A stretch of DNA of 64,000 nt from an uncultured Rhodospirillales bacterium (lineage in GTDB: Bacteria; Pseudomonadota; Alphaproteobacteria; ATCC43930; CGMCC-115725). Shown here piece after piece: positions 32,828-62,278 of the stretch (position 1 is its first letter; each line of letters starts with the position of its first letter). Location of the stretch: the NCBI GenBank assembly GCA_903822185.1, contig CAIJOA010000028.1, forward strand, positions 186,001 to 250,000, given 5' to 3'. The notes under the pieces were generated by a model. The model saw nothing but the letters and a program-made list of their open reading frames with translations, had not been told where the DNA came from and did no database searches. The translations under genes and the position numbers were made by a program.

Positions 32828-33799
32828 ATGGCTCAAAAGCCGCGCGTCATCGCCCTGGAAGAGCATTATCTCGATAACGAAGTGAAAGCGCAGTTCTCAC
32901 CGGACGACGCGCGGGCGGGTTCCTCCAAATTCATGAGCGAGCGGCTGGCCGATTTCGGCGCGCTTCGGATCAAGGAAATGGACGAGGCCGGCATCGACAT
33001 GCAGGTCCTATCGCACGGGGCGCCCTCCGTGCAGAAGATGGATGCTGAGACGTCGGTTGCCCTCGCGCGCCGCGCCAACGACCGGCTCTATGAGGCCTGC
33101 AAAGCAAATCCCGACAGGCTCGCCGCCTTTGCCGTTTGCCCGACGCCGGACCCGAAAGCCGCCGCCGACGAACTGGAACGCACGGTCACGAAATACGGCT
33201 TCAAGGGCGCGATGATCCACGGCCTGACTAACGGCGTCTTCCACGACGATAAGCGCTTCTGGCCGCTCTATGAGCGAGCGCAGCAACTCGATGTGCCGAT
33301 CTATATTCACCCCGCCTATCCGCATCCGGCGGTGGTCGAGGCCTATTACAAAGACTACATCGCCGATTACCCGAACTTGGCCAGTTCCGCCTGGGGCTTC
33401 GGTGTCGAAACCGCGACCCAAGGCATCCGCTTCTGCTTGAGCGGCGTATTCGATGCTTATCCGAAACTGCAGATCGTTCTAGGCCATCTCGGCGAGGGCC
33501 TGCCGTTCTATCTGTGGCGCATCAACCAATCGCTCGCCCGCCCCGGCAATAAGGGCGACGCCAAGTCCTTCCGCGAAATTTTCAGCAATCATTTTTACAT
33601 TACCACCAGCGGCTTCTTCTCCGACCCGGCGCTGCAATGCTGCATCACCGAACTCGGCATCGACCGGGTGATGTTCTCGGTCGATTATCCCTTCGTCGCC
33701 AACAAACCCGGCGCGGATTGGATTCATGCCGTGTCGATGAATGCGGCCGACAAGGCAAAGATCCTCAGCGGCAATGCCGAGCGGCTGTTGAAACTGTAA
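32828..33799 (+). CDS. Amidohydrolase 2-family (ACMSD-like) metal-dependent hydrolase/decarboxylase
   Basis: A 323-residue TIM-barrel protein of the amidohydrolase_2 family, which includes aminocarboxymuconate-semialdehyde decarboxylase and gamma-resorcylate decarboxylase. Visible metal and active-site segments are ALEEHYLD near the N-terminus (ExH rather than HxH), IYIHPAYPHP, VLGHLGEG and MFSVDYPFV. The Glu-x-His form of the first motif is that of resorcylate decarboxylase-type members. GGAGGAATTC precedes the ATG. It sits in the accessory block between sdhE-mfd and recG and converges with the MetE-type gene. A decarboxylase of an aromatic acid is the best guess. Confidence 0.8.
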   Translation: MAQKPRVIALEEHYLDNEVKAQFSPDDARAGSSKFMSERLADFGALRIKEMDEAGIDMQVLSHGAPSVQKMDAETSVALARRANDRLYEACKANPDRLAAFAVCPTPDPKAAADELERTVTKYGFKGAMIHGLTNGVFHDDKRFWPLYERAQQLDVPIYIHPAYPHPAVVEAYYKDYIADYPNLASSAWGFGVETATQGIRFCLSGVFDAYPKLQIVLGHLGEGLPFYLWRINQSLARPGNKGDAKSFREIFSNHFYITTSGFFSDPALQCCITELGIDRVMFSVDYPFVANKPGADWIHAVSMNAADKAKILSGNAERLLKL

Positions 33800-33805
33800 G
33801 GCCTA

Positions 33806-34948
33806 TCAGTGGTAGCCGAGCGCCTTAGTTGCGCGCTCGGCACCATCGGCCAGCGCCTGTAACTTCGCCCAGGCGATTTGCGGATGCGACCGACCGCCGA
33901 AACCGCAATCGGCGCCGGCGATGATGTTTTCTTTTCCGACCAGATTGGCGAACCGCTGAATCCGCTGCGACACCAGCTCGGGATGCTCAATCACATCGGT
34001 TGAATGGGTGATCACGCCCGGGATGATGATCTTGCCCGGCGGCAGCTTTACTTTCTCCCAAACGTCGTATTCATGCTCGTGCCGGGCGTTGGCGCCTTCG
34101 AACGAATAAGCACCTGCTTTCACCCGCAGCATCACATCGACGAAATCGATCATCTCGATGTCGTAAGCATGTGGACCGTGCCAGCTCCCCCAGCAGAGAT
34201 GATAACGAATTTTTTCTTCCGGGATGCCGGACAACGCATGATTGAGCGCCTCGACGCGCAACAGGCATCGCTTCTTGAAAGCATCGATTCCCATCGCCAT
34301 ACCGATTCGATCCCATAAGGCCGGCAGCCACGCATCATCGACTTGGACCAAAAATCCCGCCTTAGTGATGGTCTCGTATTCGACCTTCATCGCATCGGCG
34401 ATCGCATAGAGGAATTCTTCCTCGCTGCGATAGAATTCGTTGTCGCGGTAAGGCTCGAGGCTGGCGGGCGCGGTCGTCGTCAGGAACGCTTCGGCGCCGG
34501 GTCCGATCGCCGAACGGAAGATATCGATTTCCCGCTGCAACAGCTCAATGCCGGTATAGGCAACCGGCTGGGTGCAGACGAAACTCGGACGGGCGCGGTT
34601 GATCTGGTTGCCGGGATTGAAGAACAGCGTCCCTTGCGTCGTTGCGTAATGATAGAAATCGGCGAATTCTTCGCGGTCCTTACCGCGCGCCAGCAGATGA
34701 ACGCCTTCCTTGGGCGGACGTTCCTCGAAACCGCCGAAACGATCCTCGAGATAACCGAGCCAATCGCCGCCTTTGGTATATTCGCCTTCATTGATCACAT
34801 CGAGGCCGATATCGCGCTGTTTTTGCACGACAGCGGCGACCGCGCTTTTGAGTGCCGTCTCGTAATCCGGCGCCTCTTTATCGAGGGGTGTCAGATAAGG
34901 AAGACTGCCGACATGAGTCGTCAGGATTTTGCCGGTGCTGCGTTGCAC
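33806..34948 (-). CDS. Short cobalamin-independent methionine synthase-type (MetE C-terminal) methyltransferase
   Basis: A 380-residue protein equal to the catalytic half of MetE. Zinc-ligand segments are visible: HLC around residues 250-252 (YHLCWGSWHG) and Cys349 (GADCGFGG), with a candidate glutamate in DIEMIDF between. It opens TTHVGSLPYL, a family hallmark. Full-length MetE has about 750 residues; these short forms transfer methyl groups from folate or corrinoid donors or from other methylated compounds to thiols, and many are not true methionine synthases. The FkbM-type methyltransferase gene ends 11 bp upstream of this start, suggesting cotranscription. Confidence 0.8.
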   Translation of the reverse strand: MQRSTGKILTTHVGSLPYLTPLDKEAPDYETALKSAVAAVVQKQRDIGLDVINEGEYTKGGDWLGYLEDRFGGFEERPPKEGVHLLARGKDREEFADFYHYATTQGTLFFNPGNQINRARPSFVCTQPVAYTGIELLQREIDIFRSAIGPGAEAFLTTTAPASLEPYRDNEFYRSEEEFLYAIADAMKVEYETITKAGFLVQVDDAWLPALWDRIGMAMGIDAFKKRCLLRVEALNHALSGIPEEKIRYHLCWGSWHGPHAYDIEMIDFVDVMLRVKAGAYSFEGANARHEHEYDVWEKVKLPPGKIIIPGVITHSTDVIEHPELVSQRIQRFANLVGKENIIAGADCGFGGRSHPQIAWAKLQALADGAERATKALGYH

Positions 34949-34959
34949 GAGAATCCTCC

Positions 34960-35745
34960 TTAGGCTTTTGGTTTGCGCGACGCCTTGATCTGCGGCATCA
35001 CTTCGGCGAGCCGTGCCAGCAACATATTCCGCCGATTGACCTGCGCCTTGATCAGCCCCTCGTTCTCGGATTCATTCCAGAATTGACGCAAGCGAATCTT
35101 GTCGAAGCTCTTATGCAAATAGACCGGATAGAACCAGCCGAGCGATTGATCGCGCAATCGCGCGATCGTCGTTATGTCGAACAAATCGAACCCGGCGTCG
35201 GTGATCTCGGCGTTGATATCGTGAAAATCCATCACGTCGGCTTCGCATATGATGACGCTGGTTTCGCTCAACACTTTTTTTGCGCCACGCAACGCCTGCA
35301 CCTCGGCGCCCTGCACGTCGAGCTTTATCAGATAGGGTGGCTTGAGCCCCAGTTCGGCGACGACATCGTCGAGCCGGACGGCGGGTACGAAGTCGAACCC
35401 CGTCGATAACTTGTTGAGACGATCCCAATAAAGATCGTTGGTCGGCCGAACCGAGTTCCAATAGGGGTGAACCGAGGTGGTGATTTGCAGTTCGCCCGGC
35501 TGGTCGGAAACGGCGGCAATCCGATAGGCGCCGCCAAAGACATCTTCAATCGATTTGAGCGACGGCTCGTAGAGCTTGTTCGCGTCGAGGTTGAGAGGCA
35601 CGCTATCCGGGAATAGTCCTTGCAGGTAATGCTCGACGAAGAAATGGCCGTCGGCGCAGCCCATGTCGATCACCGTCGAATAGCGCAGCCCTTTGCCGAA
35701 AAGCACCTTGAGCGTATCGAAAAATGTCCAGCTTTCTTCGGCCAT
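34960..35745 (-). CDS. FkbM-family methyltransferase
   Basis: A 261-residue S-adenosylmethionine-dependent methyltransferase. Motif I is VIDMGCADGHFF, and the FkbM segment PPYLIKLDVQGAEVQALRGAKKVL with ICEADVMDF is clear. FkbM-type enzymes often O-methylate sugars or polyketides. I use the ATG at 35745; the preceding TTG would add one residue. A minus-strand TATAAT lies at 35771-35776, within the palindrome CGCTAT-T-ATAGCG. It heads a two-gene unit with the MetE-type gene and diverges from recG. Confidence 0.8.
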   Translation of the reverse strand: MAEESWTFFDTLKVLFGKGLRYSTVIDMGCADGHFFVEHYLQGLFPDSVPLNLDANKLYEPSLKSIEDVFGGAYRIAAVSDQPGELQITTSVHPYWNSVRPTNDLYWDRLNKLSTGFDFVPAVRLDDVVAELGLKPPYLIKLDVQGAEVQALRGAKKVLSETSVIICEADVMDFHDINAEITDAGFDLFDITTIARLRDQSLGWFYPVYLHKSFDKIRLRQFWNESENEGLIKAQVNRRNMLLARLAEVMPQIKASRKPKA

Positions 35746-35766
35746 CAACCCATTCCCGTTTGCTTG

Positions 35767-35779
35767 CGCTATTATAGCG
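35767..35779 (-). promoter_or_regulatory. -10 element of the FkbM gene within a 13-bp palindrome
   Basis: On the minus strand a perfect TATAAT (35776 down to 35771) would start transcription about 15-20 nt before the FkbM ATG. The element is embedded in the palindrome CGCTAT-T-ATAGCG, which could be a repressor site. The -35 region is weak. Confidence 0.4.
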
Positions 35780-35839
35780 GAACGGCGGCCCGCGAAACCA
35801 TGCGGTTCGGTGATCGATCTTTACCCAGGAAGACTGCGC

Positions 35840-37921
35840 TTGCGTCCCGAAATCCTCTTTCCGCTGTCCGCCCCTGTCACGTCCCTGAAAGGCGTGGGAC
35901 CGCGGTTCGGTAAGCTGTTCGAGAAACTCGGCATCGAAAAGGCCGTCGATCTCCTATGGCATCGCCCGACGGGGATCATCGACCGGCGCTTTCAACCTAA
36001 GATCGCCGAGGCGCCCGACGGCATGATCGCGACCCTGACCGTCACGGTCGAGGCGCATCAGAAGCCGAGCAATCCGCGCCAGCCGTATCGTATTCGCTGC
36101 CACGACGAAACCGGCGTTATGTTTTTGGTCTTCTTTCGGGTGCAGGGCGATTACCTGGAAAAGCTGCTACCCGTCGGCACGCTGCGCATCGTCAGCGGCA
36201 AGGTCGAACATTACAACGATGTCGTCCAGATCACCCATCCCGACCACATCTTCGCGGCCGAGGCCGGCGAGACCATGCGGCTGATCGAGCCGGTCTATGG
36301 TCTGACGGCAGGCCTCGGCTTGCGCATCGTTCAGCGCGCGGTTGAGGCGGCTCTGTCGCGCGCCCCGGTTCTCCCGGAATGGCTCGACCCGGCCTATTGC
36401 GCACGCGAGAAATTCCCGACCTGGCGCGAAGCCATCGCGACCGTCCATGCGCCCGAGAGCGCCGACGATCTATCGCCGATGACGCTGGCGCGGCAACGGC
36501 TCGCCTTCGACGAACTGCTGGCCAATCAGTTGGCGCTCAGCCTGATGCGCGAGCATGTCAAACGGATCGCCGGCCGCGTCATCACCGCGCCGGGTGCGTT
36601 ACGTCGCAAAGTGATCCAATCCCTGCCCTTCAGCCTCACCCTCTCTCAAAGCGCCGCTATCGAAGAAATCCTTGCCGACATGGCGAAGCCGGCGCGCATG
36701 ATGCGGTTGCTGCAAGGCGATGTCGGTAGCGGCAAAACGGTCGTCGCGCTGGCTGCGATGCTCGACGTGGTCGAAAGCGGCGCGCAAGCGGCTCTGATGG
36801 CGCCGACAGAATTGCTTGCCCGTCAGCATTATAAGACGCTGAGCAATCTGGCAGCGAACGCTGGGGTCGAAGTCGCGCTTCTGACCGGACGCGAGAAAGG
36901 CCGCGCACGGACGGCGATCCTCGAACGGCTGGCGAGCGGTGACATCGGCATCGTCGTCGGCACGCATGCGCTGTTTTCGGAAGACGTAATTTATCAAGAC
37001 CTGGCGCTTGCGGTGATCGACGAGCAGCATCGCTTTGGCGTCGAGCAGCGTATGGCCCTCGCCGAGAAAGGTCGCGGCGTCGATATCCTGGTGATGACGG
37101 CGACGCCGATCCCGCGAACCCTAATGCTAACCGCCTACGGCGATCTCGATTCATCGCGCCTGACCGAAAAGCCCGCCGGACGGCAGCCGATCGCAACACG
37201 CACACTGCCCGCCGAACGCGTGGCCGATGTCATCGCGGCGGTCAAACGCGCCCTCGAAAGCGGCGCGAAGATTTACTGGATCTGCCCGCTGGTCGATGAA
37301 TCAGAACTGATCGACCTTAAAGCCGCGACCGAACGTTTCGAAGAATTGCAGAAAATTTTTGGTCCGCGCGTCGGTCTTGTCCATGGCAAGATGAAAGGAC
37401 CGGAGCGCGACGCGGCAATGGAGCAATTCGCCGGCAGCGGCATCGATCTTCTCGTCGCGACCACCGTGGTCGAAGTCGGCGTCGATGTGCCCGAGGCGAC
37501 GGTGATGGTCATCGAACATGCCGAACGTTTCGGCCTCGCCCAGCTTCATCAGCTGCGTGGCCGCATTGGCCGAAGCGACAAGCCGTCCGCGTGCCTGTTG
37601 CTTTACACCTCGCCCCTGAGCGCCACCGCCAAATCGCGTCTTTCAATCCTGCGCGATACTGACGATGGATTTCGCATCGCCGAGGAGGATTTGCGGTTGC
37701 GCGGCGCCGGTGAAGTTCTCGGCACACGGCAGAGCGGGATGCCCGAATTGCGGCTGGCCGATCTGGCAGTCCATGGCGAATTGCTGGCCACGGCACGCGA
37801 CGACGCGCAGCTTGTTTTGACTCGTGATCCTGAGCTTGCCACGCCACGGGGGCAGGCGCTGCGGACCCTGCTTTATCTGTTTGGCCGCGACGAAGCTGTG
37901 CGCTACATCAGATCGGGATAA
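35840..37921 (+). CDS. recG: ATP-dependent DNA helicase RecG
   Basis: A 693-residue RecG, which remodels stalled replication forks and branched DNA. The N-terminal wedge domain begins PEILFPLSAPVTSLKGVGPRFG in outline, followed by Walker A (QGDVGSGKTVVA), the DEQH box (VIDEQHRFGVEQR), the TATPIPRT motif III and the C-terminal helicase half with RGRIGRSDKP. I choose the TTG at 35840 because AGGA lies 9 nt before it and the encoded protein then has normal length; the open frame continues upstream to 35693 without a better start. The first of four binding-protein genes begins 25 bp after its stop. Confidence 0.93.
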   Translation: MRPEILFPLSAPVTSLKGVGPRFGKLFEKLGIEKAVDLLWHRPTGIIDRRFQPKIAEAPDGMIATLTVTVEAHQKPSNPRQPYRIRCHDETGVMFLVFFRVQGDYLEKLLPVGTLRIVSGKVEHYNDVVQITHPDHIFAAEAGETMRLIEPVYGLTAGLGLRIVQRAVEAALSRAPVLPEWLDPAYCAREKFPTWREAIATVHAPESADDLSPMTLARQRLAFDELLANQLALSLMREHVKRIAGRVITAPGALRRKVIQSLPFSLTLSQSAAIEEILADMAKPARMMRLLQGDVGSGKTVVALAAMLDVVESGAQAALMAPTELLARQHYKTLSNLAANAGVEVALLTGREKGRARTAILERLASGDIGIVVGTHALFSEDVIYQDLALAVIDEQHRFGVEQRMALAEKGRGVDILVMTATPIPRTLMLTAYGDLDSSRLTEKPAGRQPIATRTLPAERVADVIAAVKRALESGAKIYWICPLVDESELIDLKAATERFEELQKIFGPRVGLVHGKMKGPERDAAMEQFAGSGIDLLVATTVVEVGVDVPEATVMVIEHAERFGLAQLHQLRGRIGRSDKPSACLLLYTSPLSATAKSRLSILRDTDDGFRIAEEDLRLRGAGEVLGTRQSGMPELRLADLAVHGELLATARDDAQLVLTRDPELATPRGQALRTLLYLFGRDEAVRYIRSG

Positions 37922-37946: not shown

Positions 37947-38957
37947 ATGAATGCCCGTTTTGCGTGCGCCCTCTTCGCCGGCGCCATGCTGCTGTCCGCT
38001 CCCGCTATCCCGGCACAGGCCGAGACCATCAAAGTCGGGCTGTCGAAACTCGTCTCCTATCCTGCGATGCCGATCGGCATCGCCCACGGATACTTCAAGG
38101 AGCAAGGAATCGACGCCGAAATGGTGTTCTTCGATTCCGCGCAGCCGATCGCTATCGCGGTCGCTTCCGGCGCGGTCGATTTCGGTGTCTCCGGTCTGTC
38201 CGCTGGCTTCTACACGCTCGCTGCGCAAGGCCAGCTTCGCCTTCTCGCCTCATCTGCCGGCGAAGAGCCCGGTTTTTATAACCTCGTCATTCTCGCTTCG
38301 AACAAAGCATATGACGATGGCCTTAAGACGGTAAAAGATTTGCCGGGACGCGATATCGGTGTCACGCAACTCGGCACCAGCCTTCATTACGTCGTGGGCC
38401 TCGTCGCCGAGAAGTATGGCTTCCCCCTCAGTGCCGTCACGATCAAGCCGGTGCAGTCGAACAGCAACGTCATGTCGGCGCTGATCGGCGGAACCCTCGC
38501 CGCAGGGGTCATGCCGGGAACGCCGACCTTGTCGGTTGTTCAAAAAGGCGACGTCAAACGCCTCGCCTGGGCCGGTGACATCGTCCCCGGCTGGATGGGC
38601 AGCGCGCTCTTCACCGGCACAAAAACGACGAACGAGCGCGGCGACATGATCAAACGTTTCTTGGTCGCGTACCGCAAAGCGACCAAGGATTATCACGACG
38701 CCTTTGCGACACCCGACGACAAGCGCAAGGACAGCTCGGCCGCACCCGAGATTCTCAAAATCCTGTCCGATTTCAGCGGCGCACCGGGCGAAGAAATAGA
38801 CAAAGCACCGCCTTTTCTCGACGCGCAAGCGCGTGTGAATGTCGATGACGTCGGACGGCAGATTGCCTGGTATCGCGGCCAGAACCTGATGAAAGGCGAC
38901 ATCAAGGCTGAGGAATTGGTCGATACGCGTTACGCCATCCCGGTCAATCGGAAGTAA
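37947..38957 (+). CDS. NitT/TauT-type ABC substrate-binding protein, tandem copy 1
   Basis: A 336-residue NMT1/SsuA-like periplasmic binding protein with a signal peptide (ALFAGAMLLSAPAIPAQA). The mature part shows the family core GYFKEQGIDAEMVFFDSAQP, ASGAVDFGVSG, LGTSLHYVVG and QIAWYRGQNLMKG. GGGAGG precedes the ATG. It is the first of four adjacent paralogs that share these blocks. The gap to the recG stop is 25 bp and I see no obvious promoter there, so it may be read from the recG transcript. No permease or ATPase gene accompanies it. The ligand is unknown. Confidence 0.85.
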   Translation: MNARFACALFAGAMLLSAPAIPAQAETIKVGLSKLVSYPAMPIGIAHGYFKEQGIDAEMVFFDSAQPIAIAVASGAVDFGVSGLSAGFYTLAAQGQLRLLASSAGEEPGFYNLVILASNKAYDDGLKTVKDLPGRDIGVTQLGTSLHYVVGLVAEKYGFPLSAVTIKPVQSNSNVMSALIGGTLAAGVMPGTPTLSVVQKGDVKRLAWAGDIVPGWMGSALFTGTKTTNERGDMIKRFLVAYRKATKDYHDAFATPDDKRKDSSAAPEILKILSDFSGAPGEEIDKAPPFLDAQARVNVDDVGRQIAWYRGQNLMKGDIKAEELVDTRYAIPVNRK

Positions 38958-38959
38958 AA

Positions 38960-39958
38960 ATGCGCATCTTTTCAAAGTTGATGTTGGCCGGCGCGATGAC
39001 GCTTGCCGTATCGCAAGCCGCCGAAGCCGAAACCGTCAAAATCGGCATCTCGAAATTATTCTCCCAAGCAGCCGTACCGCTGGCCATCGAACGCGGCTAC
39101 TTCAAGGAACAGGGTCTCGATGTCGAGATGGTGTTCTTCGACGCCGCGCAGCCGATCGCCGTAGCCGTTGCCTCGGGTGATGTCGATTTCGGCGTCGCGG
39201 GCATGTCGGCCGGATTCTTCTCGCTCGCCTCGCAAGGGCAACTCAAACTGATCGGGTCATCGACACGCGAGACCAAAGGCTTCTACAGCCTGATCTTCCT
39301 GCTTTCGAACAAGGCGGCTGCCGCGGGATTGAAGACGGCGAAGGACCTACCTGGCCACGACATCGCCATCACCCAGGTCGGCACCAGTCTTCATTACAGC
39401 ATCGGTCAAGTGGCGGAACGTAACGGCTTCACCATGAGCCAGGTATCGGTAAAACCCCTGCAATCGAACAGCAACGTCATATCGGCACTGACCGGCGGCA
39501 CGGTCGATGCCGCCGTCATGCCCGGCAGCTCGGTGCTGCCGATGTTGAGCAAGGGCGATATCAAGCTGCTGGGCTGGATCGGCGATCTGGCGCCAGGTTC
39601 ATCGGGCAGCTCCCTCTTCACCTCAACCAAGATCGCGAACACCAAGGGTGAGGTCGTCACGCGTTTCATGGCCGGCTATCGCAAGGGCATGCGCGATTTC
39701 CACGACGCCTTCGCGACACCCGACGATCAGCGGCGCAACGGCCCCGGCGCAGACGCCGTGCTGAAATCGGTATCGGCCTTTACCGGGGTCACTGTCGCAG
39801 AACTCGACAAAGCCGTACCTTATGTCGATCCGGACGCACGGCTCGATCCGGGCGATGTGGCGCGCCAGATCGCCTGGTACAAGTCGCAGAACCTGCTCAA
39901 AGGCGATATCAAGGCGGATACCCTCATCGACAACCGCTACGCAATGACCAAGCCGTAA
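38960..39958 (+). CDS. NitT/TauT-type ABC substrate-binding protein, tandem copy 2
   Basis: A 332-residue paralog of the preceding protein, beginning two bases after its stop. The signal peptide (SKLMLAGAMTLAVSQAAEA) leads into ETVKIGISKLFSQAAVPLAIE, then GYFKEQGLDVEMVFFDAAQP, VGTSLHYSIGQ and QIAWYKSQNLLKG. The ligand-facing segments differ from copy 1 (SQAAVP where copies 1, 3 and 4 have SYP or GYP), which suggests a changed ligand preference. GGAAG in the end of copy 1 serves as ribosome site, so expression is coupled. Confidence 0.85.
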   Translation: MRIFSKLMLAGAMTLAVSQAAEAETVKIGISKLFSQAAVPLAIERGYFKEQGLDVEMVFFDAAQPIAVAVASGDVDFGVAGMSAGFFSLASQGQLKLIGSSTRETKGFYSLIFLLSNKAAAAGLKTAKDLPGHDIAITQVGTSLHYSIGQVAERNGFTMSQVSVKPLQSNSNVISALTGGTVDAAVMPGSSVLPMLSKGDIKLLGWIGDLAPGSSGSSLFTSTKIANTKGEVVTRFMAGYRKGMRDFHDAFATPDDQRRNGPGADAVLKSVSAFTGVTVAELDKAVPYVDPDARLDPGDVARQIAWYKSQNLLKGDIKADTLIDNRYAMTKP

Positions 39959-39993
39959 AAATAAACAAGACGACGCGAACAGGGAGAAACGCG

Positions 39994-41007
39994 ATGAAGC
40001 TTCACGTCCCCCAATTATTGGTAGGCACGCTGGCGTTGCTTGCCGCCGCCGTCGCGCCGGCTCACGCTGAAACGGTCAAGATCGCGATCTCGAAGCTGAT
40101 CGGTTATCCCGCGGTACCGGTCGCGATCGAGCACGGCTATTTCAAGGAACAGGGCATCGAGCCCGAAATGGTGTTCTTTGACTCCGCTCAACCGGTCGCG
40201 ATTGCGGTCGCATCGGGCGATACGCCGTTCGGCATCGCCGGCATGTCGGCAAGCTTTTATACCCTCGCCGCTGGTGGTCAGCTTCGCCTCATCGCCTCCT
40301 CTGCCGGCGACGCACCGGAATTTTACAATCTGGCCTTCGTCGTCTCGAACAAAGCCTATGACGGCGGCCTCACCTCGATCAAAGATCTTGCCGGTCATTC
40401 CGTCGCGATCACACAGGCCGGCACCAGCCTCCATTACGCCGTAGGGCAAGCAGCCGAGAAGCTCGGCTTTCCCCTGTCGAGCGTCACGGTAAAGGCACTG
40501 CAATCCAATACGAATGTCGTCGCCGCGCTTATCGGTGGCACCATCGACGCGGGCGTTCTGCCCGGCGCGCCGATCCTGGGGCCGTTGCAGAAGAAAGAAA
40601 TCCGACTGCTGAATTGGGCCGCCGACGTTGCGCCGAATCTCGTCGGCAGTGCAGCCTTCGCCTCGGCCAAGGAACTCAACGAGCATGGCGATACCGTGAA
40701 GCGGTTCCTCGTCGCTTATCAAAAGGGCATGCGCGACTTTCACAACGCCTTCGCCTCGCCCGACGGGAAACGCGCAGATCAACCGACGGCACCGGATATC
40801 CTGGCCATCATGTCGAAGTTCACCGGCGTCGCACCGCAAGAAATTCTCAAAGCCATCCCCTATATCGACCCGGAAGGCCGCCTCGATGTCGATAGCGTCG
40901 CGGCACAGATCGCTTGGTACAAATCGCAGAATCTGTTGAAGGGCGATCCGAATGTCCACGATCTGATCGATAGCCGCTACGCGTTGAAGACCGAGTCAAA
41001 GAAATAG
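39994..41007 (+). CDS. NitT/TauT-type ABC substrate-binding protein, tandem copy 3
   Basis: A 337-residue paralog with signal peptide LLVGTLALLAAAVAPAHA. The mature protein retains ETVKIAISKLIGYPAVPVAIE, GYFKEQGIEPEMVFFDSAQP, AGTSLHYAVGQ, LQSNTNVVAALIGGTIDAG and QIAWYKSQNLLKG. CAGGGAGAAACGCG precedes the ATG. The 35-bp gap after copy 2 is the largest within the array and shows no terminator. By eye copies 1, 2 and 3 are closer to each other than to copy 4. Confidence 0.85.
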   Translation: MKLHVPQLLVGTLALLAAAVAPAHAETVKIAISKLIGYPAVPVAIEHGYFKEQGIEPEMVFFDSAQPVAIAVASGDTPFGIAGMSASFYTLAAGGQLRLIASSAGDAPEFYNLAFVVSNKAYDGGLTSIKDLAGHSVAITQAGTSLHYAVGQAAEKLGFPLSSVTVKALQSNTNVVAALIGGTIDAGVLPGAPILGPLQKKEIRLLNWAADVAPNLVGSAAFASAKELNEHGDTVKRFLVAYQKGMRDFHNAFASPDGKRADQPTAPDILAIMSKFTGVAPQEILKAIPYIDPEGRLDVDSVAAQIAWYKSQNLLKGDPNVHDLIDSRYALKTESKK

Positions 41008-41014
41008 GATCGGC

Positions 41015-42028
41015 ATGATGAAACTCCGATCAATCTGCGCCGTCACGTTCGGCCTCCCGCTCATCCTGACGAGCGTGCCGACGCACGCGGAAGCCGTCAA
41101 AGTCGCCATTACCCGACTGCTGTCTTACCCGTCGGTGCCGATCGCTATCGAGCGCAGCTACTTCAAAGAGCAAGGCATCGAAGCCGAGATGGTCTATTTC
41201 GATTCCGCCGAGCCGATGGCCGTTGCTCTCGCTTCGGGCGGTGTCGATTTTGGGGTCTCCGGCCTTGGCGCGGCGTTCTATACGCTCGCCTCGCAAGGAC
41301 AGATACGATTGCTCGCATCATCGGCGATGGAGCATGGCGACGGATTTTCTAATCTCGTCTTTATCGGCTCCCCAAAAGCCTATGAGAGCGGCATGACCAC
41401 CGCGCACGATTTGCCGGGCCATACGTTCGGCGTGACGCAGATCGGCACCAGCCTCCAATACAGCCTCGGCCTGATCGCCGAAAAAGACGGCTGGCCGGTC
41501 AGCAGCGTTCCGATCCGGCCGTTACAATCGATCCCGAATGTCATTACCGCGCTGGTCGGCAGCCAAGTCGATGCGGCGGTATTGCCGGCGACACCGCTTC
41601 TGCCGTTGCTCGACAGCGGCAAGGTCAAACTGCTCGGCTGGGCTAGTCAGCTCATTCCCAACTGGATGGGTGCGGTCGCCTTCACCTCGAAGAAACACGC
41701 CGACCAGGATGGCTACATGGTGAAACGCTTCCTCACCGCTTACCGAAAAGGGTCGCACGATTATCACGCTGCCTTCGCCGGCCCTGACAATAAGCGCGCG
41801 GACAACGCATCGACACCGGCGATGCTCGAATTACTGTCTAAGTTCACCAGCATCGCACCGGGCCTGATCGACCGTGCGACGCCTTATATCGATCCCGAAG
41901 GCCGCGTGGTTATGGCCGACCTGGCGCATCAGATCGCCTGGTACCGCTCGCAGAATATGATGAAGGCGAATGTGAAACCCGAAGATTTCGTCGATACGCG
42001 TTACGCCATCCTGGCAGAGGCAAAATAA
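41015..42028 (+). CDS. NitT/TauT-type ABC substrate-binding protein, tandem copy 4
   Basis: A 337-residue paralog, 7 bp after copy 3, with signal peptide TFGLPLILTSVPTHA. It keeps RSYFKEQGIEAEMVYFDSAEP, ASGGVDFGVSG, IGTSLQYSLG and QIAWYRSQNMMKA, but has LQSIPNV where copies 1-3 have QSN(S/T)NV, a change it shares with the distant family member at 61.3 kb. This places it between the tandem group and the distant copy. It converges on the DUF502 gene, with 4 bp between stops. Confidence 0.85.
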   Translation: MMKLRSICAVTFGLPLILTSVPTHAEAVKVAITRLLSYPSVPIAIERSYFKEQGIEAEMVYFDSAEPMAVALASGGVDFGVSGLGAAFYTLASQGQIRLLASSAMEHGDGFSNLVFIGSPKAYESGMTTAHDLPGHTFGVTQIGTSLQYSLGLIAEKDGWPVSSVPIRPLQSIPNVITALVGSQVDAAVLPATPLLPLLDSGKVKLLGWASQLIPNWMGAVAFTSKKHADQDGYMVKRFLTAYRKGSHDYHAAFAGPDNKRADNASTPAMLELLSKFTSIAPGLIDRATPYIDPEGRVVMADLAHQIAWYRSQNMMKANVKPEDFVDTRYAILAEAK

Positions 42029-42755: not shown

Positions 42756-43802
42756 TCATGCCTCGATCAGTTGAAAGCCGGCAGTGAAACCCGGACCAAG
42801 CGCCGTCATCAAGATACGCCCCGTCGCTTCTGCTTGCAGGGTCCGCTCCAACACGAACAACACCGTAGCGGCGGACATATTGCCAAAATCGCGCAGGACG
42901 CTGCGTGCCTCGGTCAATCTGCCTGGGTCGAGACCGAAGGCCCCTTCCAGCGCCTCGATCACCTTGGCACCGCCCGGATGACAGACGAAATGGGCGACCT
43001 GCTGGATATTCAACCCGTGCCGTTCGAGGAAATTAGACGCCGTGCGATGGAGGTCGCGGCGCACCAAGGCAGGGATATGACGCGAAAAGATCGCCTTGAG
43101 CCCGTTCTCGGCGACATCCCATCCCATCACGCCGAGAGAATTGGGCCACGTCCATTCCCCGCTTTCACGCAGAACCGGTCCCTCGCCATCGCATGACAGG
43201 ATAGCGGCAGCTGCGCCGTCGCCGAACAGAGCGGTCGCGACAATGTTGCTCTTGGTGAATTCGCCCCCTTGAAACGAGAGCCCGCAAAGTTCGACGACGA
43301 GAAACAGGATTTTCGATCGCGGCGCCGCACGCGCGAGTTCCGCTGCGCGGCTGAGGCCGAGGACGCCACCCGCGCACCCAAGGCCGAAGATCGGGAGCCG
43401 GCGTAAATCAGCCCGCAGCTTCAACCGGCTCATCAGCATCGCATCGAGGCTTGGCGTGGCGATGCCCGTCGTCGAGACCGTCACGACGGCATCGATATCG
43501 CCGGCATCGAGATGAGCAGCCTCGAGCGCCTTGACGGCGGCTTGCTCGATCAGCGCCAGCGCATTTTCAAGATAAAGGGAGTTACGCTCACCCCAACCAT
43601 GCGGGACGTCGTACCAATCAAGCGGCACCGTGGAATAACGCGTGTCGATCCCGGCGTTATCAAAAACACCCAGTATGCTCTCGAGTTCAAAGCTGTCGGC
43701 GCCGGCAAACCATCGCTTCGCGCGCGAAGCGATGTCGCCCTGGGAAAGCTTATACGGTGGAACAGCCGTGGCGAGCGCCATGAGACGCGGTAATTCCGTC
43801 AC
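42756..43802 (-). CDS. Type III polyketide synthase (chalcone/stilbene synthase family)
   Basis: A 348-residue type III polyketide synthase with the complete catalytic triad: Cys143 (FGLGCAGGVLG), His275 (FVCHPGGAK) and Asn308 (DFGNMSAATV). Such enzymes condense malonyl-CoA units onto an acyl-CoA or acyl-ACP starter to give alkylpyrones, alkylresorcinols or phloroglucinols. The GLGCAGG form of the nucleophile elbow is common in bacterial alkylpyrone and alkylresorcinol synthases. It diverges from an isoprenylcysteine-methyltransferase-family gene, the usual partner in such clusters. Product chain length cannot be read from the sequence. Confidence 0.85.
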   Translation of the reverse strand: MTELPRLMALATAVPPYKLSQGDIASRAKRWFAGADSFELESILGVFDNAGIDTRYSTVPLDWYDVPHGWGERNSLYLENALALIEQAAVKALEAAHLDAGDIDAVVTVSTTGIATPSLDAMLMSRLKLRADLRRLPIFGLGCAGGVLGLSRAAELARAAPRSKILFLVVELCGLSFQGGEFTKSNIVATALFGDGAAAAILSCDGEGPVLRESGEWTWPNSLGVMGWDVAENGLKAIFSRHIPALVRRDLHRTASNFLERHGLNIQQVAHFVCHPGGAKVIEALEGAFGLDPGRLTEARSVLRDFGNMSAATVLFVLERTLQAEATGRILMTALGPGFTAGFQLIEA

Positions 43803-58891: not shown

Positions 58892-59905
58892 ATGATGAAG
58901 ACTTGGCTGGCTCTTGCCGGCACCATGCTGGCGACCGCGGCAACCACCGCCCAGGCCGAACCGCTGAAAATCCGCGCCGACTGGAATATCGTCCCCGGCC
59001 AGTTTGCCCCGCTGATCCCCACCCTGCCGCAATACGCGCCGGACGTTTATCGCCACTACGGCAAATCCTACATCGTCGAGCCGCTCAAGATGCAGGGCGG
59101 CGGTGCGACCCTGACCGCGCTCGCCGTCGGCGAAACCGATCTCAGCACCCTCAGCCCGCAGACCCTCGTCCTCGGCGTCACCAACGCCAAGCTCGATCTG
59201 CATGTCATCGGCCAGCAGATCACCACCGAGGTGCCGGGCTATCTACAAACCTATTTCTGGGCGCGTTCCGCCGAAGTGAAGAGCGTTGCCGATCTCAAAG
59301 GCAAGGTCATCGGCATCAGCGTACGCGGCTCGAACGTCGATGCTGCCGCCCATATGGTGATGGCGAAAGCCGGCTTCACCGAGCCGCGCGATTATCAGGT
59401 CGTGGAGATTTCCTTCCCTGCCCTGCTGCCCTCGCTCGACGCCAAAAAGATCGATGCAGCCGTGCTCGTGCCGCCATTCCATCTGCGCGTCGCCGACAAT
59501 CCCGCTTATACGAAAGTCTTCAGCGTCGGCGACGCCTTCGGCCCGGTTGAAACGCTGATGTGGATGGCGAAAGCGGATTTCATCGCCAAGAACCGCGCGG
59601 CGCTGGTCGATTTCCTCGAAGACAATATGCGCATGCGGCGCTGGATGTTTGATCCGAAAACACATGCGGATGCCATCAAACAAGTTTCGGATCAGACGAA
59701 GGTCCCCGTCGAAGGCCTTGCGAGCTGGGTCTATTCAACGGGCGATTATTATTACGATCCGCATGCCAAAGTCGATGTTGCCCGGTTGCAAAAGAACGTC
59801 AACGACATGAAGGGCGCGGGGGTTATCCCGACGGCGATCGACGTCAAACCCTATGTCGATATGTCTTTGGTCGAGGAAGCGGCAGCGCGGCTCGATAAGC
59901 CCTGA
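58892..59905 (+). CDS. NitT/TauT-type (NMT1-like) ABC substrate-binding protein, separate branch
   Basis: A 337-residue periplasmic binding protein with signal peptide TWLALAGTMLATAATTAQA. The mature protein reads EPLKIRADWNIVPGQFAPLI and later VADLKGKVIGISVRGSNVDAAA and KIDAAVLVPPFHLRVADNP, typical of nitrate/sulfonate/taurine-type binders, but lacks the GYFKEQG and IAWYxSQN blocks of the tandem family. GGGGGAA precedes two adjacent ATG codons (58892, 58895). It is preceded by the structured region described above. No permease or ATPase gene follows. Confidence 0.85.
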   Translation: MMKTWLALAGTMLATAATTAQAEPLKIRADWNIVPGQFAPLIPTLPQYAPDVYRHYGKSYIVEPLKMQGGGATLTALAVGETDLSTLSPQTLVLGVTNAKLDLHVIGQQITTEVPGYLQTYFWARSAEVKSVADLKGKVIGISVRGSNVDAAAHMVMAKAGFTEPRDYQVVEISFPALLPSLDAKKIDAAVLVPPFHLRVADNPAYTKVFSVGDAFGPVETLMWMAKADFIAKNRAALVDFLEDNMRMRRWMFDPKTHADAIKQVSDQTKVPVEGLASWVYSTGDYYYDPHAKVDVARLQKNVNDMKGAGVIPTAIDVKPYVDMSLVEEAAARLDKP

Positions 59906-61267: not shown

Positions 61268-62278
61268 ATGACATCGGGAAAGATTCTGGCTGGCGGACTC
61301 GCAGCCTTGACGTTGCTGGTCGTGCCGCCAATGGCGCGTGCGGCCGACCACATCAAGATCGGCACGCTGAAAGCGACCAATGTCGGCCCGGTCTATATCG
61401 CCATCGATAAAGGCTACTTCGCCGAAGAAGGGCTTGATCCCGAACTCGTCTCGTTCGAATCAGCACAGCCTATCGCCGTCGCCAACGCCGCGGGCTCGAT
61501 CGATTTCGGCGCCACCTCGACCTCGGCGGGCCTTTACAGTCTCGCGGCACAGGGCACGATCAAGATCATCGGCGGCATGTATAGCGAAGCGCCGGGCTTC
61601 CATAACTTCGCCCTCGCTGCATCAGGAAAGGCCTATGAAGGCGGACTCAAAAGTTACAAGGATCTGCCCAGCCATAGCGTCGCGGTAACGCAAGTCGGCT
61701 CGCCGGTGCATTACAGCCTCGCCTTGATCGTCGAGAAATACAAACTCGACCTCGCCAGTATCAAAGTGCTGCCGCTGCAAAGCATTCCGAACATGGCCTC
61801 CGCCCTGATCGGCAACACCGCGGATTCGAGCGTGATCAATTCCACCTCGATCAATCCGCTGCTGCAGGCCGGACAAGCAAAGCTGATCGGTTGGATCGGC
61901 GACGAAACGCCGTGGCAGACCGCCCTCACCTTCACGCAACCGAAGACGATCGCCGACCGCAAGAAGATCGTCGAAGCCTTCCTGCGCGCCTTCAAGAAGG
62001 GCGCACGTTACTACCACGACGCCTATACCGGCGCGGGCGAGAAGCCGGTGGACGGTGCGACCGAACCGGAAGTCACCGGCATCCTCGCGAAATATACCGG
62101 CCTCAGTGCGCAGCAGGTTAAGAACAGCATCGCCTATGTCGATCCCGAGGCGCGCGTCGATATGAAAGACGTCGTCCATCAGGTCGAATGGTTCAAGTCG
62201 CAAAAGATGCTGAAGGACGACGCCAATGGCGACGCGATGATGGATAAGAGCCTCATCGTTCAAATTCCGGCGCGCTGA
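61268..62278 (+). CDS. NitT/TauT-type ABC substrate-binding protein, distant member of the tandem family
   Basis: A 336-residue paralog of the four tandem proteins at 37.9-42.0 kb, with signal peptide ILAGGLAALTLLVVPPMARA. It keeps GYFAEEGLDPELVSFESAQP, IDFGATSTSAGLYSLAAQG, VGSPVHYSLA, LQSIPNMASAL and VEWFKSQKMLKD, so common ancestry is clear, but many ligand-facing positions differ. GGGGAGATGGCGG precedes the ATG. It sits alone, without transporter genes, 140 bp before a sensor kinase. Confidence 0.85.
   Translation: MTSGKILAGGLAALTLLVVPPMARAADHIKIGTLKATNVGPVYIAIDKGYFAEEGLDPELVSFESAQPIAVANAAGSIDFGATSTSAGLYSLAAQGTIKIIGGMYSEAPGFHNFALAASGKAYEGGLKSYKDLPSHSVAVTQVGSPVHYSLALIVEKYKLDLASIKVLPLQSIPNMASALIGNTADSSVINSTSINPLLQAGQAKLIGWIGDETPWQTALTFTQPKTIADRKKIVEAFLRAFKKGARYYHDAYTGAGEKPVDGATEPEVTGILAKYTGLSAQQVKNSIAYVDPEARVDMKDVVHQVEWFKSQKMLKDDANGDAMMDKSLIVQIPAR

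Follow-up and report, generated by a model that had tools for sequence, protein, structure and literature searches.

In the genome of an uncultured Rhodospirillales bacterium (G000), four tandem genes for substrate-binding proteins (SBPs) of the NMT1/SsuA fold lie directly behind recG with no transporter genes among them. They were analysed within a stretch of 64,000 nucleotides, the window (C28:186001-250000 of G000), and compared with the genome of a sister species (G001); labels such as L021 denote loci. The SBP copies very probably have different and conserved ligand specificities, as judged from the conservation of their pocket positions. Moreover, it is likely that these receptors feed in trans one ABC (ATP-binding cassette) importer of the type encoded on contig C46, for which we infer both the docking to the C46 proteins and the role in transport.

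The four-gene array and its ligand pockets

The array consists of four intact paralogous open reading frames on the plus strand (37947-42028): gene 1 (37947..38957, 336 amino acids), gene 2 (38960..39958, 332 amino acids), gene 3 (39994..41007, 337 amino acids) and gene 4 (41015..42028, 337 amino acids). The gaps between them measure 2, 35 and 7 bp and gene 1 starts 25 bp after the recG stop (37921); these coordinates confirm the arrangement of four genes of 332-337 codons from which the original prediction, made from the sequence alone, had set out. All four proteins match PF09084 (49-68 bits, cut-off 20.5), and genes 2, 3 and 4 encode proteins 58, 57 and 53% identical to that of gene 1. Their N-termini, judged by eye only, show a hydrophobic stretch with an AxA-like end, typical of signal peptides. 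The core blocks had been described as common to the four copies. This holds for IAWYxxQN, and genes 1-3 also carry GYFKEQG, FFDxAQP and TSLHY, but gene 4 has variants of these three motifs (SYFKEQG, YFDSAEP and TSLQY).

The AlphaFold model of the gene 2 protein (pLDDT, the model's confidence score, 93.3) has the SsuA/TauA fold of class II periplasmic binding proteins, and its best matches in the PDB are SsuA and TauA; Thi5, DszB and AioX are also among its fold matches. The array proteins score below the NCBIfam cut-offs for SsuA and TauA equivalogs (54-75 against 163.5 bits for TIGR01728, SsuA_fam, and 26-36 against 304 bits for TIGR01729). For the TctC family (PF03401), two of the four score 20.8 and 16.7 bits, under the cut-off of 27.

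As the original prediction stated, the array holds no permease or ATPase. There is no PF00528 permease anywhere in the window, and the matches on contig C28 (21625-22912 and 120313-121770) fall outside it. The array is thus not part of a self-contained NitT/TauT-type operon with a permease and an ATPase beside the SBPs, and a private transporter nearby was ruled out. A promoter scan at the array gave a single promoter-like match, on the minus strand, where 1.4 would be expected by chance, and is therefore uninformative. An assembly artefact, which had been named as a possible objection, was also ruled out: a collapsed or recent duplicate is excluded because the copies share just 60-65% DNA identity in pairwise comparison, and the array is not an assembly error because G001 carries recG followed by three array members.

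The evidence for distinct specificities comes from the ligand pocket. The residues lining the taurine-bound site of TauA have been published (PMC6906117, of which the part giving these residues was used). Ten of these contact positions were placed on the SBP alignment and compared in 17 ortholog pairs between G000 and G001; TauA Asn55, Asp84, Ser109 and Ser10 were not used, the first three having mismatched the expected letters at the numbering applied. Within the ortholog pairs the ten positions agree in 86% of cases, whereas paralogs agree in 27%. Control columns of equal variability among paralogs are kept in 59% of cases within pairs when cleft columns are excluded from the pool and in 62% when all other columns are admitted, and with either pool none of 5000 random draws reached 86%. 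These figures describe pairs from two species only, with positions transferred over a fold match (gene 2 model to TauA) of ~19% sequence identity.

The same pattern extends to the cleft as a whole. Two sets of loops were drawn by hand from the secondary structure of the AlphaFold model, before counting. Variable cleft-facing loops (43 columns) are kept in 80% of cases against 61% expected (0 of 5000 draws), while variable loops on the opposite face (31 columns) are kept in 60% against 67% expected, a value matched or exceeded in 4982 of 5000 draws. When the alignment columns were scored, nine of the ten TauA positions fell among the 40 highest. Moreover, the test gave the same result in a second SBP clade, the C48 clade, which is an independent expansion and where 20 reciprocal-best pairs kept 89.5% of the contact positions against 65.9% (0 of 5000 draws).

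A wider pocket of 29 positions illustrates the case of the array itself, its figures being illustrative because the positions were hand-picked after viewing the column scores; the ten published positions are the clean test. The array genes agree with their G001 counterparts at 90-97% of the 29 positions while the whole proteins are 64-69% identical, and for genes 3 and 4 the values are 97% each in the pocket and 69% each overall. Among the four array genes the pocket agreement is 41-76%, with genes 1-3 rather alike (66-76%) and gene 4 the most different (41-59%). The pocket comparison proposed with the original prediction therefore found positions that differ between paralogs and are kept between orthologs, which argues against redundancy of the copies.

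The clade and its proposed transporter

A profile built from the four array genes found 34 places in G000 and 35 in G001 that score above 200 bits, the next scores being 98 and 79, and no stop codon was reported inside the listed places; a relative of the window gene lies at G001 C2:796630-797607. In a midpoint-rooted tree of 82 sequences, which included 30 of the 35 places of G001, the members from both species (34 + 30) form a single clade of 64 sequences with support 91/98. Its sister group (90/89) consists of four SBPs, which come from one Rhizobium bin and three Rhizobiales bins; no C46-like permease was found near these four within the flanking sequence retrieved, which is short in some cases. 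The next sequences outside are nine SBPs of Breoghania, Rhizobiaceae and others. One-to-one orthologs in G001 were assigned at strong support to 17 of the 34 G000 members, leaving aside the weakly supported pairs L098/L112 (91/87) and L104/L112 (93/57), and therefore much of the duplication is older than the split between the two species.

The array is also old, as seen from comparison with G001, because the sister species keeps recG with three members, orthologs of genes 3 and 4, and shared neighbours. Gene 3 pairs with L021 11010-12020 (tree support 100/99) and gene 4 with L021 12017-13027 (100/100). Gene 1 probably corresponds to L021 9959-10990 (64% identical overall), by position and identity, since the tree placement of the latter is weak (94/43), and gene 2 is left, by elimination, as the copy that the three-gene array lacks. 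Around gene 4, six of seven tested non-SBP genes within five genes have a counterpart in G001; gene calls in these neighbourhoods came from a simple codon-usage script that missed some genes. The search of a related genome for the same array, also suggested at the outset, thus recovered a three-gene version behind recG.

Whole-genome searches with the C46 permease found a single permease of the window-clade type per genome, on C46 in G000 and on C3 in G001 (81% identical), and the next-best permeases are at most 39% identical. The order at C46 is a divergent mutS (confirmed by Pfam), two clade SBPs, the ATPase and the permease; the locus in G001 has a gene with a mutS-like N-terminus, one other gene, three clade SBPs, the ATPase and the permease. 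Since there is only this one C46-type permease per genome, 32 of the 34 clade members in G000, among them the four array genes, lack an adjacent transporter of their own type. The distant shared transporter for which the original prediction recommended a search is therefore represented by one cognate-type permease with its ATPase, and the objection that an operon might encode its own binder for every copy does not apply, as a single operon holds binders for 2 of the 34.

The same type of transporter occurs outside the genus in its simple form. In nine genomes (L028, L030-L032, L034-L038) the SBP of this type is followed by an ATPase (55-57% identical to that of C46) and a permease (50-56%); a tenth locus, L039, has broken frames, is not counted among the nine and was left out of the tree. 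The SBPs of these operons are 36-40% identical to window gene 2. Eight of the nine genomes, whose completeness is not stated, have a single match to the window profile, and Breoghania has a weak second one of 43 bits.

The transporter-linked and orphan states of an SBP may be interchangeable, as indicated by one pair in the tree, because the SBP L090_13611 beside the C46 transporter of G000 has as its sister an orphan of G001, L123_6748 (100/100, 60% identical). In addition, many binders around one transporter are visible elsewhere in these genomes. A minus-strand run on C48 (L066 6014-17472, where L066 is G000 C48:104000-123999) contains a hydantoinase-B-type gene, five SBPs, an ATPase, two permeases, four SBPs and an MmgE/PrpD-type gene, and G001 also has a run of three SBPs, an ATPase and two permeases.

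The window clade is part of a much larger, lineage-specific expansion, in that the SBP count is far above that of relatives and the clade is mostly private to the lineage. G000 (4.27 Mb, 95% complete, 50 contigs) yielded 252 first-look PF09084 candidates, and the 150 of them that were scored all exceeded the cut-off. The first-look list and three profile searches together give at least 203 NMT1-type SBP places, or at least 47.6 per Mb. This is a lower bound, since the merge counts genes with an overlap of a few bases as one, 150 of the 252 candidates were scored and the 27 strongest matches of one profile search were added; 20 of the 203 come from profile A4 alone (59-118 bits). Just 42 of the at least 203 places have a PF00528 permease of any kind within 3 kb. 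The first-look count is 281 in G001. Among 35 further family members it lies between 4 and 45 in all but one, G014, which has 121, the highest count in the family outside the genus. Among 386 alphaproteobacterial genomes at least 80% complete, the highest other count in the genomes listed is 56, against a first-look count of 250 for G000 in this comparison, an unlisted genome having no match. For comparison, 49 model strains average 60 SBPs of all families, with a maximum of 189, in the portion of the survey used here (PMC9602780).

The largest array in G000 has 17 NMT1-type SBP genes without a transporter (C48:85208-103208, L065 1209-19209) and is collinear with an 11-gene array in G001 (L126); 11 of the 20 reciprocal-best pairs mentioned above link these two arrays in unbroken order. 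Another SBP clade, with 27 places above 350 bits in the genome, includes a ten-gene tandem array at L071 2155-12349 (L071 being G000 C39:68000-84000). In-frame stops were flagged in a small number of SBP places on C21 and C44, where the alignments may simply overrun the gene end. The expansion differs from the known TTT (tripartite tricarboxylate transporter) or Bug expansion because PF03401 (TctC) has only 3 members over cut-off in G000, and that identity was ruled out. Partial expansions were seen in another order: the window profile has 56, 25 and 34 matches in the Rhizobiales bins behind L027, L029 and L047 (G432, G433 and G435), and these three bins carry the label 'Umea', as the sister species does.

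Ligands and competing explanations

The genes beside clade members and their outside relatives suggest a class of ligands. Neighbours scanned with Pfam and NCBIfam were hand-chosen, partly by sequence appearance, and are not a random sample; in one set of 20 of them, 14 match families of metabolic enzymes (Rieske oxygenase, amidohydrolase, FAA hydrolase, glyoxalase/dioxygenase, luciferase-like monooxygenase, class II aldolase and others). The L031 and L034 operons, 89-94% identical to each other, continue on the same strand with a gene resembling gentisate-1,2-dioxygenase (scoring below the cut-off), a member of the FAA-hydrolase family and a 3-hydroxybenzoate 6-monooxygenase (577 bits, cut-off 459). 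At L088 of G000, 4 bp separate a clade member from a gene of the 4-hydroxybenzoate-3-monooxygenase family, over the subfamily cut-off and under that of the equivalog, and this neighbour is kept in G001 (76%). The ligands are thus probably aromatic or other organic acids. Some surroundings fit this less well, as not all are aromatic: L030 lies downstream of a xanthine permease and upstream of a ureidoglycolate lyase, and L032, besides a 4-hydroxybenzoate 3-monooxygenase, has a NagA-type gene upstream. The mixed neighbourhoods of L030 and L032 therefore point to a broad ligand class.

Taken as an evolutionary sequence, the array genes would descend from the binding subunit of an ordinary ABC importer of the NitT/TauT type, multiplied by duplication within the lineage, and each copy would have gained its own ligand pocket, held by selection. 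The array proteins, without membrane subunits of their own, would then deliver their ligands in trans to the ATPase-permease pair of C46, and 34 binders would broaden what a single pump can take up. A more general form of this idea is tentative: ABC import in the genus may be modular, with ~200 SBPs, each having a pocket of its own held by selection, that dock in trans and by clade to a few dozen cores of permease and ATPase. By the same tentative reading one core may serve ~34 receptors, with a smaller form also in the three Rhizobiales bins.

Several observations weigh against a single shared pump. The model requires that one permease pass all the ligands, and the authors of the TauA work expect membrane domains to add selectivity, in the part of their report used here (PMC6906117). 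There are 47 matches to the C46 permease in G000, that one included, so that some orphan SBPs may use other permeases. Three clade members lie near ABC genes of other types: on C20 (L098), with a 578-amino-acid two-domain permease, on C32 (L085), at a locus with an SBP_bac_3 binder, and at L114 of G001, the last judged by gene order only. The members of the pair L090_13611/L123_6748 are just 60% identical and their pocket strings differ at many positions; therefore the pair shows a shared line and not a shared ligand. Half of the ortholog comparisons (8 of 16) share no non-SBP neighbour within five genes, and one clade member, the solitary SBP at 61268..62278 (plus strand, 336 amino acids), precedes a histidine kinase.

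Some of these points would suit binders of distinct specificity that dock promiscuously with several of the ~47 NitT-like permeases instead of the C46 pair, and the TTT SBPs of Rhodoplanes do occur beside transporters of other families, according to the passages of that report used here (PMC5994714). Such docking is unlikely, as the SBP clade and the permease type travel together in the nine outside genomes, the other permeases are no more than 39% identical to the C46 type, and the other SBP clade on C48 has its own transporter locus. It is somewhat less probable still that the SBPs pass their ligands to histidine kinases or chemoreceptors and do not serve import. One of the fold matches is the periplasmic sensor component AioX, and the solitary member ends 141 bp before a PAS/HisKA kinase gene; a sensory role has also been discussed for TTT SBPs, again in the consulted passages (PMC5994714). 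However, the array has no kinase or chemoreceptor gene beside it in G000, where its flanks are recG and a DUF502 gene. Furthermore, the ortholog of the kinase-linked member (G001 L114 5570-6679) shares none of five tested neighbours with it, and metabolic-enzyme families prevail among the hand-chosen neighbours that were scanned. That ortholog follows an apparent operon of two permeases and two ATPases of ABC type, as judged by gene order. Sensing is possible for single members such as 61268-62278. Thus, between the two readings first offered, binders of different specificity with a distant shared transporter are favoured, and the sensing or scavenging role retains its place for single members.

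Two further explanations are highly improbable. The SBP fold is also used by enzymes, and Thi5 and DszB among the fold matches, together with the many catabolic genes among the hand-chosen neighbours, might suggest periplasmic enzymes; yet the outside relatives adjoin an ABC ATPase and permease in all nine operons, and the positions that change from line to line yet stay the same within each are those that contact the ligand in TauA. Redundant duplicates without functional difference would be compatible with the fairly similar pockets of genes 1-3, but hardly with contact positions kept within pairs and divergent between paralogs, nor with clade places in which no stop codon was reported. The sharing of the C46-type importer by receptors of different specificity is therefore retained as the likely explanation.

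Neighbouring genes and known systems

In both species the array is anchored in synteny by recG (35693..37921, plus strand), which matches NF008164 of NCBIfam with 1082 bits (cut-off 785) on 35846-37918 and is 77% identical to recG of L021; its true start is probably further in. Upstream are a cobalamin-independent methionine-synthase-like gene (33806..34948, minus strand, PF01717 with 38 bits), whose N-terminus resembles that of L021 6711-7850 upstream of recG in G001, by the gene list, and an amidohydrolase-family gene (32828..33799, plus strand, PF04909 with 151 bits). A type III polyketide synthase-like gene (PF00195/PF02797) at 42756-43802 has a 70% identical counterpart in L021. The window holds a further NMT1-type SBP that does not belong to the window clade (58892..59905, plus strand, PF09084 with 48 bits). 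This gene, the solitary clade member and the genome-wide scale of the expansion were absent from the original prediction.

With SsuABC and TauABC the system shares the SBP fold, and the C46 permease matches the SsuC and TauC models below their cut-offs; in contrast to them, the array SBPs score far under the family cut-offs and are not encoded with the transporter. The SBP-ATPase-permease operons of Breoghania and Rhizobiaceae have the transporter type of C46 and related SBPs, but one close SBP per genome, as opposed to 34 per transporter in G000. Several binders that use one membrane complex are known from HisJ/LAO and LivJ/LivK, where two binders share one transporter, whereas G000 has tens, scattered over the chromosome.

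The closest precedent is the TTT expansion of Rhodoplanes sp. Z2-YC6860, with 434 TTT SBP (Bug/TctC) genes and a longest array of 9, for which the authors discuss shared membrane components or sensing in the sections of the report used here (Rosa et al. 2018, PMC5994714); the present case is an ABC-type variant of it. As far as those sections describe it, both expansions are alphaproteobacterial and lineage-specific, with most SBPs lacking membrane partners and with tandem arrays, and the densities are 57.3 per Mb outside genomic islands in Rhodoplanes and at least 47.6 per Mb in G000. They differ in family, TctC in Rhodoplanes and NMT1/SsuA of the ABC type in G000, where the longest array reaches 17. 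Moreover, unlike in those sections, a single cognate pump can be identified here, together with evidence for pockets that diverged and were then conserved. No described NMT1-type SBP expansion was found among the listed titles and abstract openings from open-licence PubMed Central, a search limited to that collection and thus no proof of absence.

Orphan binding proteins are common in bacteria and their role is usually left open. The pocket test turns such genes of unknown function into a testable ligand repertoire for which a candidate pump can be named, and the operons with one SBP outside the genus, the 34 SBPs per pump here and the linked and orphan sister genes form a series from which predictions can be made. 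If the proposed sharing is true, counts of transporters based on permeases would badly underestimate the uptake range of such bacteria, and the modular SBP system would be the bacterial counterpart of a chemosensory receptor repertoire.

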